DNA of 64,000 nt from Halichondria panicea (lineage: Eukaryota; Porifera; Demospongiae; Suberitida; Halichondriidae). Below the pieces are notes generated by a model. The model saw only the letters and a program-made list of their open reading frames with translations, was not told where the DNA came from and made no database searches. The position numbers and the translations under genes were made by a program. Shown one piece after another: positions 51,976-56,330 of the stretch; the stretch's first letter is position 1; each line of letters starts with the position of its first letter. The stretch is from the NCBI RefSeq assembly GCF_963675165.1, contig NC_087377.1:2944978-3008977 (forward strand). The letters run 5' to 3'.

Positions 51976-52427
51976 TCATTTGAAAGTAATAACAAAACGT
52001 GGTAAATCATGAGCAGGGTTCTTCATCACTACTATGTCCCCTTTTTTTGTATGATGAGTTGTATGATGAGTTCCATTCTGTCCTAGCAACAGTTCATTCA
52101 GCAGCAGCTTCTTTCCACCATTGCAGTAATCAAGAGGAATGATGGGAGATGTTGCAAAGTATTCCCCGGCACCATTGACTTGGCGACTTCTTTTCTTTTG
52201 GTCATAACCAGTACTACATATGCTGTCGATATTGCTTTCTGATGTTCCATGAAATGCAAGGCAAGTATTTCTTTGGCTGGTCGGTAGGGACATCATTGCG
52301 CTCCTAAATGTATTAAATAGAGCACCTCCAGGCTTAGCGTGATCATTTTCTTTCATTGAGGCAACTTTGAGATCGGAAAATTTCTGGAGAAACTTTTGAA
52401 CTTCCGGCATGCTTGTAAGAATCTTTG
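51976..52427 (-). CDS. Gene D, terminal exon: PARP-like ADP-ribosyltransferase domain
   Basis: Starts after acceptor CTATCAG; the first full residues are KILTSMPEVQKFLQKF. The catalytic signature follows: CLAFHGTSESNIDSICSTGY (NAD-binding His in HGT), then VNGAGEYFATSPI (Gly-rich turn and Tyr), LDYCNGGKKLLLNELLLG, and GDIVVMKNPAHDLPRFVITF to a TGA at 51976. H and Y of the H-Y-E triad are present. The third position falls in GDIVVM rather than at a clear Glu, so mono-ADP-ribosylation or loss of activity is more likely than polymer synthesis. It is compact, with no helical regulatory domain. Five WW-domain exons lie directly upstream on the same strand. Confidence 0.8.
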
Positions 52428-52724
52428 CTGATAGAAAAAAGTATAGTAAAACAATTGTTAGCCAGCTCTGATATTCATTACCATCTCTGTTGGGGGCGTC
52501 CTTCTGTGCATGGTCTAGACAACAGTAGTCATGGACTGTCCCTCCCTCTGTTTTCTTTCTATTGGTGCATTAACTTACTCTAGTTAAAAGTCACACGTAC
52601 ATGTCCAGGGAAATGACTTCTTACTCAGCTACGCATGCGTTTAGTCATAATGACGTTAAGAAATGCAAAATTAAGTAGTTGTCAAGTGCCTCCTAAGAAT
52701 CTTCAGGTATACATACACACACAC

Positions 52725-52870
52725 CTTTGCCGTGTGTCCTGTTCACTGTAACTGATTGGTCGATCCCATTGTGTGCTTCTGGAGATGTGGTCTAGATAGT
52801 AGGTACGTCCATTACCATCCTGTCTCTCCTCCCAAGATTTAGGCAGTGGTCTATGCAATGAAAGGTGGCA
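52725..52870 (-). CDS. Gene D, WW-domain exon 1 (nearest the ART exon)
   Basis: [20 protein letters not shown] then [20 protein letters not shown]: a full WW domain (W, YY, W-x-x-P) that binds proline-rich ligands. Acceptor CTCTAG at 52871-52872 is shared by all five units. The donor lies in a GTGTGT run, so its exact position and phase are ambiguous; the GT two bases downstream gives the phase needed to join the ART exon. Confidence 0.8.
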
Positions 52871-52920
52871 CTAGAGTCAGGTTGGTTATATAAGGGCCGT
52901 ATTTGGAAGGTAATGATTAT

Positions 52921-53800
52921 GTTATAGTTATAACACGGGATGTATGGAATATATTGCACTGAAGCATGAGGGCGTAAGCCCCGAGGGCTGAGTGCAATAT
53001 ATTCCATGCATCCCGAGTGCACGTGTAATAACTAGTTTATATCCCGAAGGCATAGCAACATAACACTGTCTTATATAAACTGCACAAAAAGATGACAAAG
53101 ACAACTCTAGACACAGCTCCATCTCTTCTCTCTCCTAGACGCCAGTATATGCAGCGTATAAGATTGGCATGACCGACGAATGGCTTGACACAAAATTGTT
53201 GGAGTTCCAACGCTGAAACCACTGCAAAACAGCCCTTCTGGTGCTGCAAAACAGCCCCACCCCGCTATACTGCTGCAAAGAAACAGCCCCACCCCATTTA
53301 CTGCATGCTGCGAAGAAACAGCCCACCCCACTATACTACTCAGTGTAACTGCTGCTCCAACAGCCCTCTCAACTATCCTCGGCATCACAACCAAGCCAAA
53401 GAAGCTCGCCTCTACACTGCTGCAAAACAGCTCAAGCCCCCTGCAAAAAGAGCCGCTTCTAGTGCTATGGTGAAACCAGAATTGACCGTGCATCAAGAAG
53501 TGGAGGACTAGGTCTAGGAACACAGAATCTTCACAAAATGAGCCTGGGACGATTTTAAAACCTGCATAGTTGCAAAGAAGAAACTCCAGCAGTGCTGAAC
53601 ATTCCTGCATGGCTGGACTTACTTTATGGCTGGACTTACTTTGATACTTGTTATTTCTCATGATACAATATTTAATTTAATTATGCCAGAGGGGCGTTTT
53701 GTGGTTAGTGCATTATGACTTTGCGGTTAGTGCAATATGACTTTCAGCAGTGCATTATGCTGCATATTGCACTTGGTAACAACGTAGCAACGGGATATAA
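52921..53800. mobile_element. MITE family F, most complete copy
   Basis: Inserted in the spacer of the WW array: units 2-5 read GATTATAATAAATATAAG continuously, whereas here the element lies between GATTAT and AATAAATATAAG. It ends in TTATAGTTATAACACGGG and CAACGGGATATA, and has an internal ATATTGCACTGAAGC / GAGTGCAATATATTCC foldback. The open frames in it are chance. Confidence 0.8.
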
Positions 53801-54013
53801 AATAAATATAAGAGATTGATACTCGACATTATTTTATCAAACTAGCTGCTGTATAGAATTGTAAGCTTCCTTACTCTAGTTAAAAGTCACACGTACATGC
53901 CCAGGGAGATAACTTCTTACTCAGCTACTAACCTCTGCATGCGTTTAATATCAACGTCATAGTGACGTTAAGAAATGCAAATTAAGAAGTTGGCAAGAGG
54001 TACACACACACAC

Positions 54014-54162
54014 CTTAATTGCCGTGTGTCCTGTTTACTGGACCTGGTTGGTCGATCCCATTGTGTGCTTTTGGAGATGTGGTCTACATAGTAGGTACGT
54101 CCATCAGCAGTCTTTCTCTTCTCCCAAGATTTAGGCAGTGGTCTATGCAATGAAAGGTGGCA
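54014..54162 (-). CDS. Gene D, WW-domain exon 2
   Basis: [20 protein letters not shown] continuing [20 protein letters not shown]: complete WW domain. Practically identical to exons 3 and 4. Acceptor CTCTAG; donor at a GTGTGTGTGT run. Confidence 0.85.
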
Positions 54163-54397
54163 CTAGAGTCAGGTTGGTTATATAAGGGCCTTATTTGGTA
54201 GGTAATGATTATAATAAATATAAGAGATTGATACTTGACATTATTTTATCAAACTAGCTGCTGTATAGAATTGTAAGCTTCCTTACTCTAGTTAAAAGTC
54301 ACACGTACATGCCCAGGGAGATAACTTCTTACTCAGCTACTAACCTCCGCATGCGTTTAATATCAACGTCATAGTGACGTTAAGAAATGCAAATTAA

Positions 54398-55298
54398 CCC
54401 TTTCCCTGCTTTAATTAAAAGTGAATATTCGCATATTTTGTTTAAAATATTTATAACTCATGAACCGTATATTAAAAACACTTGTAACAAAGTTCCACAG
54501 GTAGAACCGGACCTGTCGCATTCATGGAATCATCATTGTTGCCTAGCAACCAACCACCACCCCACAAATAACAATTGTTAACAAAAATTCACAATTATGT
54601 ACACAAACAATATTGTATGATGTTACGAAGTGACTGAACACATGATATAAGTGTTTAGAATGTTCTCACGGTGACATGGCTCACTCAGGACTCAATCAGG
54701 ATCTGCAGAAACTTGTATTTGAGGTTCTATCAGCAGACGCCCTTTTCCCGGGAAATATTTTCTTCACCTACACACAGGTTTACAAATTTAATGGTGTCTC
54801 ATGATGTCCACTGTTGTACTAACTAGCCTAAACAAACCTATAGTGAAGCTATCAAGACTACAAATGCTACTCTATAGTGACTTACCAGGTTCAGGAAGAT
54901 GGTCCACCTCAAGTGCGTCTTCCTCAGGATTCTCAGGCTCTTTCTTTTTAGCTTGACCTCTGAAAGGAAGCTTCCTACCTAGCTATGATCCCAGTCACTG
55001 TCCTCTCACTCTACAAGGCCATAGGCATCGATATTCTCACTCTGTAGCTTCCCTAGAACCTCCCTGACGTTGTACTACAAAGATCTTGTAGCAATTATAA
55101 AACGGTCACTTTTCTTTCGACAATTCTGATCGAACTGTACCTCGAAGCAAAATATTAAAAATACCATGAGGAAGAGCAGCTCAATGCGCATGTGCTGGTA
55201 CCTGCAGCGTGTGCATAGCTCCAACACAGCGTGCACAACGATTTTTTGAAATTTATCAGTAGCCATGCCGACTATAGTCGGCTAAAGCGGGGAAAGGG
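54398..55298. mobile_element. piggyBac-like element inserted in the WW array
   Basis: CCCTTTCCCTGCTTTAATTA to GCGGGGAAAGGG, flanked by TTAA. The neighbouring units carry the empty site AAATTAAGAAGTTGG, which proves the boundaries and the 4-bp TTAA duplication. A decayed minus-strand stretch (LQSENIDAYGLVE, then EDSDWDHS, about 54970-55050) may be a transposase remnant. Confidence 0.85.
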
Positions 55299-55334
55299 TT
55301 AAGAAGTTGGCAAGAGGTACACACACACACACAC

Positions 55335-55483
55335 GTTAATTGCCGTGTGTCCTGTTTACTGGACCTGGTTGGTCGATCCCATTGTGTGCTTTTGGAGATG
55401 TGGTCTACATAGTAGGTACGTCCATCAGCAGTCTTTCTCTTCTCCCAAGATTTAGGCAGTGGTCTATGCAATGAAAGGTGGCA
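55335..55483 (-). CDS. Gene D, WW-domain exon 3
   Basis: Same sequence as exon 2 up to the donor, where TTAAC|GTGTGT replaces TTAAG|GTGTGT in a longer GT run (about 16 bases). WW residues are all conserved. Confidence 0.85.
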
Positions 55484-55746
55484 CTAGAGTCAGGTTGGTT
55501 ATATAAGGGCCTTATTTGGTAGGTAATGATTATAATAAATATAAGAGATTGATACTTGACATTATTTTATCAAACTAGCTGCTGTATAGAATTGTAAGCT
55601 TCCTTACTCTAGTTAAAAGTCACACGTCCATGCCCAGGGAGATAACTTCTTACTCAGCTACTAACCTCCGCATGCGTTTAATATCAACGTCATAGTGACA
55701 TTAAGAAATGCAAATTAAGAAGTTGGCAAGAGGTACACACACACAC

Positions 55747-55895
55747 CTTAATTGCCGTGTGTCCTGTTTACTGGACCTGGTTGGTCGATCCCATTGTGTG
55801 CTTTTGGAGATGTGGTCTACATAGTAGGTACGTCCATCAGCAGTCTTTCTCTTCTCCCAAGATTTAGGCAGTGGTCTATGCAATGAAAGGTGGCA
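55747..55895 (-). CDS. Gene D, WW-domain exon 4
   Basis: Identical in translation to exon 2. Acceptor CTCTAG at 55896-55897, donor in GTGTGT. Confidence 0.85.
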
Positions 55896-56178
55896 CTAGA
55901 GTCAGGTTGGTTATATAAGGGCCTTATTTGGTAGGTAATGATTATAATAAATATAAGAGATTGATATTCGACATTATTTTATCAAACTAGCTGTTGTATA
56001 GAATTATAAGCTTCCTTACTCTAGTTAAAGTCACACGTACATGCCCAGGGAGATGACTTCTTACTCAGCTACTAACCTCTGCATGCGTTTAAATGTCAAC
56101 GTCATACTGAGTGACGTTAAGAAATGCAAAATTAAGAAGTTGGCAAGTGCCTCCTAGAATCCTCAGGTACACACATAC

Positions 56179-56330
56179 CTTTGCCGTGTGTCCTGTTTAC
56201 TGGACCTGGTTGGTCGATCCCATTGTGTGCGTCCAGAGGTGCAGTCTACATAGTAGGTACGTCCATTCAGGGTATCATCCTGTCTCTCCTCCCAACATTC
56301 AGGAAGTGGTCTATGCAATGAAAGGTGGCA
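56179..56330 (-). CDS. Gene D, WW-domain exon 5 (most upstream)
   Basis: HRPLPECWEERQDDTLNGRT then [20 protein letters not shown]: a diverged WW domain with a two-residue longer first loop; the W, YY and W/P positions are kept. Donor GTATGT is here outside a pure GT run. No further WW exon is seen upstream, and the start of the gene was not found. Confidence 0.8.

Follow-up and report, generated by a model that had tools for sequence, protein, structure and literature searches.

Could a sponge gene have acquired an array of WW domains in front of an ADP-ribosyltransferase (ART) and, if so, how did the two parts come together? The question arises from a stretch of 64,000 nucleotides of Halichondria panicea, hereafter the window (C1:2944978-3008977, where C1 is NC_087377.1, an 18.1 Mb contig in a genome of 131 Mb and 39 contigs). 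A preliminary description of this stretch had placed five WW exons upstream of a PARP-type catalytic exon on the same strand, and had read the pair as an unusual substrate-targeting design. All six exons passed the Pfam cut-offs used here (26.9 bits for WW, PF00397; 26.7 bits for PARP, PF00644), scoring 33.1-47.4 bits for WW and 35 bits for PARP, and all lie on the minus strand in the order described. The WW-ART observation is thus confirmed, and its first interpretation is partly supported. The two parts very probably became neighbours by a rearrangement, and we assign a rough probability of 0.5 to the reading in which this rearrangement produced a candidate young chimeric gene with a WW-ART product. 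The candidate gene would comprise the following features, given in window positions and in the order of the predicted transcript.

56369-56394, minus strand: candidate first coding exon (MARQDSASE) with donor GTGAGT, phase 2; supported by counterparts before related WW exons and by the in-frame model
56179-56310, minus strand: WW exon 1, phase 2 on both sides; PF00397 33.1 bits, splice sites
55747-55875, minus strand: WW exon 2, phase 2 on both sides; PF00397 47.4 bits, splice sites
55335-55463, minus strand: WW exon 3, phase 2 on both sides, with C rather than G preceding the donor; PF00397 46.9 bits
54014-54142, minus strand: WW exon 4, phase 2 on both sides; PF00397 47.4 bits, splice sites
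52725-52850, minus strand: WW exon 5, phase 2 on both sides, closest to the junction; PF00397 45.8 bits, splice sites
52482-52558, minus strand: zinc-motif exon remnant, truncated at its 5' end, with a possible acceptor AG at 52559-52560, phase 2 in and phase 1 out; alignment with four other copies
51976-52427, minus strand: last exon, encoding the PARP-type catalytic domain (ART) and the stop codon; open reading frame (ORF) at 35 bits with PF00644, paralogues

This layout keeps the order and the domains reported earlier and replaces the coordinates, which had been those of stop-to-stop frames; the ART ORF, 51976-52569, runs through a 54-base intron (52428-52481) that separates two exon pieces. 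The set of five WW exons also held, although the ATG exon upstream of them had been missed and they amount to fewer distinct sequences than their number implies. Exons WW2, WW3 and WW4 encode identical WW domains, and the repeat units around the exons include three 300-nt copies that are 97-100% alike, with a fourth, at WW5, at 68%, so that the five exons represent about three independent WW sequences. Both signature tryptophans are present in all five translated exons, and the nearest solved relatives in profile searches were ITCH and NEDD4L. Assignment to WWE instead of WW received no support from the profile, in agreement with the earlier distinction between the two domains.

The PF00644 match of the window ART spans profile positions 45-120 of 199; open ART paralogues elsewhere in the genome scored 37.3, 43.4 and 42.1 bits and a frameshifted one 14.2 bits. 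Its best solved relatives were chains of PARP13/ZAP, PARP12 and PARP10 (profile search, E 0.00046 to 0.038). The catalytic triad of the PARP/ARTD family follows the rule H-Y-[E/I/L/Y]. Histidine (FHGT) and tyrosine (GEYF) lie inside the matched part and are invariant in four aligned copies, and an isoleucine on the last strand, placed by eye and outside the profile match, would be the third position. No relatives of the ART were confirmed in IMG/VR or prokaryote contigs, a weak negative given that the patterns had been derived from the N-terminal part, which is less informative, and a PHROGs search returned a weak match alone (E 0.033).

Four other loci in the genome carry this ART, a count that is a lower bound. 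One lies at C1:10.825 Mb (97% and 96% in two pieces) and three on contig C13, at 153 kb (84% and 76%), 172 kb (84%) and 189 kb (77% and 74%), the last of which is frameshifted. In all four copies, the bases that open the window's ART block fall in the middle of an exon coding for CGLPGCTN(R)KKTEGGTVHDYCCLDHAQKDAPNRD, of which the window copy is without the portion up to CGLPG. The block therefore carries two exons from the end of a zinc-motif/ART gene, and the break falls within the first of these. Upstream of the ART at two C13 loci, several more CxxxxC...YCGxxHA motifs can be read; they have no Pfam name, and we read them as putatively zinc-binding. No further zinc-like motif was found upstream of the C1:10.82 Mb copy in frames of at least 50 residues over about 9 kb, and this copy is likewise short on its 5' side. 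Since both C1 copies are 5'-short, it seems that copying has twice given the C-terminal ART cassette new neighbours. PARP-type matches also form clusters at C13:152-205 kb and C15:692-770 kb; in the C13 cluster, zinc-motif/ART genes are interspersed with PARP-type frames of another kind (HGTKLTCN...), on both strands.

Comparison of the window by blastn with stretches from the same genome resolved the region into two sides and a junction.

43826-52570: block duplicated from, or sharing a common source with, C1:10819615-10825799; six collinear blastn pieces at 87.7-96.9%, with extra stretches in the window copy
52571-52573: rearrangement junction, a 3-base filler between the WW-gene intron and the ART block; end of the pairwise match, genome probe
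52574-60808: WW-gene side of the junction, its outer parts matching C1:3072345-3078000; blastn

Identity with C1:3072345-3078000 was 94% at 52574-52890, 88% at 55987-56621 and 92% at 56620-60808. The WW-side match extends to ...AACTAGAGTAAG and is followed by three bases, TTA on the minus strand, that match neither side, and then by the ART-side match. A 219-base probe across the junction matched 11 places in the genome, in full solely at the window. Four places, the other ART copies, matched positions 1-89 alone, and six matched the WW side alone: five of them from position 93 (C1:3.072 Mb and the window's four remaining WW introns) and one, C1:4.65 Mb, over positions 164-219. This pattern indicates that the junction exists once among the places found. 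Two source loci meet here at a single junction absent from both, as expected of a rearranged chimeric locus, and on this comparison we consider it very probable that the WW-ART neighbourhood arose by rearrangement.

A long CA tract is present within the duplicated block, at about 51395-51575. Such a tract could have promoted an assembly mis-join, in which case the junction at 52571-52573 would be absent from the animal. However, the junction lies within an 18.1 Mb contig and away from the tract, and each side has diverged by ~3-12%, depending on the piece, from its matching assembled locus and carries different insertions, so the window is no chimera of those two assembled places. We consider a mis-join very improbable. 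The shared strand and domain order would also suit an old, established WW-ART gene family, but the join is a mid-exon breakpoint and the C13 relatives of the ART carry zinc-like motifs instead of WW domains. Among the PARP profile matches listed for the genome (at least 56; the PARP and WW listings are both lower bounds), the window's alone has a listed WW match within 10 kb, and none of the other four ART loci has one within that distance among the matches listed. An old family is, on this evidence from a single animal genome, scarcely credible.

We then considered whether the rearranged exons could be read as one gene. The WW introns are all phase 2 on both sides, and the donor of WW5 can join an AG inside the truncated zinc-motif exon; the remnant in turn joins the ART exon with the same phase, 1, that this join has in the other copies. 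The resulting GT-AG model is open and in frame, with 1200 bases, 399 residues, a single terminal stop and no internal stop, and its predicted order is MARQDSASE, five WW domains, half a zinc-motif linker and a C-terminal ART. The single transcript that the preliminary description had suggested is thus possible. Splicing and expression are predictions from this model, and we put the existence of one expressed WW-ART protein at somewhat short of even odds.

These observations are consistent with the following origin. A segmental duplication from the C1:10.82 Mb lineage would have brought the 3' end of a zinc-motif/ART gene, consisting of its last two exons and flank, to C1:2.99 Mb. The recipient would have been a gene opening with a short ATG exon followed by a WW exon of NEDD4 type, and the insertion would have fallen in the intron behind a WW exon. 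The breakpoint would have split the zinc-motif exon and left 77 bases starting just past an AG; because the remnant begins after this AG, the phase-2 WW5 exon could splice in frame to it and from there to the ART exon. NEDD4 WW domains belong to the PPxY binding class. The five-fold WW array may accordingly prefer PPxY-like proline motifs and dock on partners that carry them, to which the C-terminal ART, with its H-Y-I type triad, would transfer single ADP-ribose units. We infer this binding preference and activity from the domains encoded. A bolder reading is that the locus already makes a functioning newborn enzyme that combines multivalent PPxY docking with mono-ADP-ribosylation, joined in a single rearrangement from a NEDD4-type WW exon and an ART cassette that had found new neighbours by copying at least twice, with the WW exons amplified afterwards. 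We regard this reading as rather unlikely.

If the window ART belonged to a working gene, its coding sequence might be constrained. We compared its coding pieces with the C1:10.82 Mb copy, with non-coding sites of the block as the yardstick. The coding pieces differ by 2 substitutions and one 12-base in-frame indel over 517 sites, whereas the 2800 non-coding sites show 80 substitutions and 32 gap events. With only one of the two copies assumed to be unconstrained, the substitutions give P = 0.022, the gaps 0.21 and the two combined 0.008. Uncorrected dN/dS was 0.16-0.19 when the window or C1:10.82 Mb ART was compared with the two open C13 copies, 0.17 between those two (the frameshifted C13 copy was excluded), and 0.27, on two changes, between the window and C1:10.82 Mb. 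There is some sign that the window ART copy may be under continuing constraint.

Several results weigh against a fused gene. With the nearest 432 non-coding sites alone as the yardstick, the constraint test was not significant (P = 0.14 for substitutions, 0.46 for gaps and 0.11 for both), so the signal leans on the farther flank. The acceptor that would join WW5 to the remnant is weak: it has pyrimidines at 7 of the 16 positions from -20 to -5, where the WW and ART acceptors have 12. In addition, a match in phase is expected by chance in one third of cases. Five of the eight WW relatives on C1 outside the window are broken, four by a stop and one (3.07 Mb) by a frameshift, with three open. An AlphaFold2 model of the ART, built from 4 near-identical rows, had a mean pLDDT of 45 and was left unused. 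Uncorrected dN/dS in comparisons involving window WW exons ranged from 0.47 to about 10 and was mostly at or above 1, giving no indication of purifying selection (11 exons were listed, of which 4 broken ones were dropped and 7 compared). WW2-4 differ from WW5 by 12 nonsynonymous and 0 synonymous changes. As judged from these small counts, the WW exons appear to be subject to relaxed or diversifying change rather than constraint.

The same locus can be read as two neighbours without fusion. The WW exons would then make a WW-only product that ends at a stop a few residues past WW5 or at an alternative 3' end, and the ART would be a 5'-truncated duplicate, either dead or with its own start at an in-frame methionine near the head of the last exon. 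The mid-way cut in the exon and the missing 5' part of the ART gene fit this reading, as do the weakness of the new acceptor, the frameshift already present in the C13:189 kb copy and the breakage of several WW relatives. If the remnant is skipped and WW5 is spliced to the ART acceptor, the stronger of the two, the frame is lost and a stop follows. In contrast, the window ART frame is open, its indel is a multiple of three and its changes are few relative to non-coding sequence, with the nearest-site caveat given above, and each of the five WW exons retains an intact frame and GT/AG sites. We regard two unfused neighbours as a serious contender that falls just under an even chance. The substrate-targeting design cannot be treated as settled: the join is a rearrangement junction with a 3-base filler inside an exon that is coding in the four other ART copies, its splice site is weak, and the other four ART loci, within the lower-bound listings, have no WW match within 10 kb.

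For the fused candidate, the relatives of the WW exons point to a source. A genome search with one WW frame returned 21 matches: five in the window, another eight on C1 and the remaining eight spread over C5, C7, C9 and C17. The WW locus at C7:177 kb contains a HECT domain (109 bits) along with a further WW profile match, and its WW exon shares the terminal DTRQ(R) residues and the donor position with the window WW exons. The HECT locus and the shared exon end together suggest that the exons probably derive from a WW exon of NEDD4 type. WW5 is followed downstream by the block common to C1:10.82 Mb; no HECT domain, the mark of a NEDD4-family E3, was found with the window WW exons, the block's ORF downstream of WW5 matching PARP alone in Pfam and the block not being scanned frame by frame.

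The ATG exon has counterparts on C1 at 3.07 Mb (MARQDSASE), 2.56 Mb (MARQDSE) and 4.65 Mb (MAEPDPE), and a further one, with in-frame differences, at C1:2.528 Mb. At C1:4.65 Mb, in an independent WW gene that speaks for the gene structure proposed here, the ATG exon has phase-2 joins and a phase-2 acceptor lets the WW read in frame to ankyrin repeats, with the caveat that a phase-0 AG lies 7 bases beyond that acceptor. An array of WW, Death-like and ankyrin exons occupies C1:2.52-2.63 Mb, where four WW exons are stopped, the stop falling at the first tryptophan codon (in the fourth, as aligned). The Death-like exons there score under the Pfam cut-off. A WW-Death-ankyrin parent from this array was considered and is unproven, as the phase-1 start of the Death-like exons is incompatible with the phase-2 donor of the WW exon. 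Upstream of the window ATG exon, 57034-57997 is a 0.96 kb stretch without a convincing frame that is found at 83-85% at C1:2.527, 2.559, 2.599 and 2.631 Mb, and is possibly a promoter of the WW genes.

The order of events may be read from the divergence of the copies. Between WW2 and WW4, 3 of 379 aligned sites differ, whereas non-coding sites of the ART block have diverged by 2.9%. The WW amplification therefore seems to have followed the join, unless the copies have been homogenized by gene conversion. Two of the introns contain additional sequence. An insertion of ~0.9 kb between WW3 and WW4 (54394-55302), bounded by TTAA and CCCTTTCCC...GGGAAAGGG ends, resembles a piggyBac-type element. 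The WW4-WW5 intron holds a repeat of ~0.9 kb (52918-53800) that is also present at C13:212198-213064, a region that is also matched by pieces of window 46592-47053 and 47953-48300.

Farther upstream, an open frame of 819 residues covers 61731-64000 and continues beyond the window edge; its P-loop GPSGLGKTT and DIGGQ appear ROCO-like by eye, and its part in the window had no Pfam match over the cut-off and no solved relative. Death-like frames downstream of it score under the Pfam cut-off, and upstream of it, outside the window, lies a larger frame with GHTGVGKTS and DTGGQ. We considered whether the WW exons are the 3' end of this GTPase/Death-like gene, and dropped the idea in view of the ATG exon with a phase-2 donor just before WW1 and its relatives.

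Compared with known systems, the window ART resembles PARP10/PARP12-type mono-ARTs in its PF00644 score and its FHGT and GEYF motifs, but it is shorter (144 residues from the first methionine) and has WW domains as neighbours (zinc-like motifs on C13) instead of WWE, macro or CCCH domains. The WW exons are like those of NEDD4/ITCH in their best solved relatives, ITCH and NEDD4L, and through the related C7 exon with HECT; unlike those, they stand behind an ATG exon of their own, are tandemly multiplied and have no HECT found with them. A PARP survey lists WWE, macro, RRM, CCCH and ankyrin partners, and its main text contains the term 'WW domain' 0 times (PMC4245714). Chimeric genes of Drosophila yakuba are reported to form in a similar way, a structural change placing different sequence downstream of an existing gene's 5' end (PMC6776367). 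In that study, which included transcripts, the added part derives from DNA that had not been transcribed before, whereas here it is a catalytic exon known from sequence. No WW-PARP protein was described in the literature searched, as far as its accessible text goes, which is no proof of absence from print. While the domains and the mechanism are known, the WW-ART combination would be new.

If expressed, the locus would encode a fusion enzyme of recent origin, and a single assembly would document that origin at single-base resolution, from related copies, a junction, a frame-keeping splice site and later exon amplification. It would also offer a testable case of a substrate-docking array fitted to an ADP-ribosyltransferase. 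If it is unexpressed, it would illustrate that a domain order seen in raw sequence may stem from a breakpoint rather than a gene.

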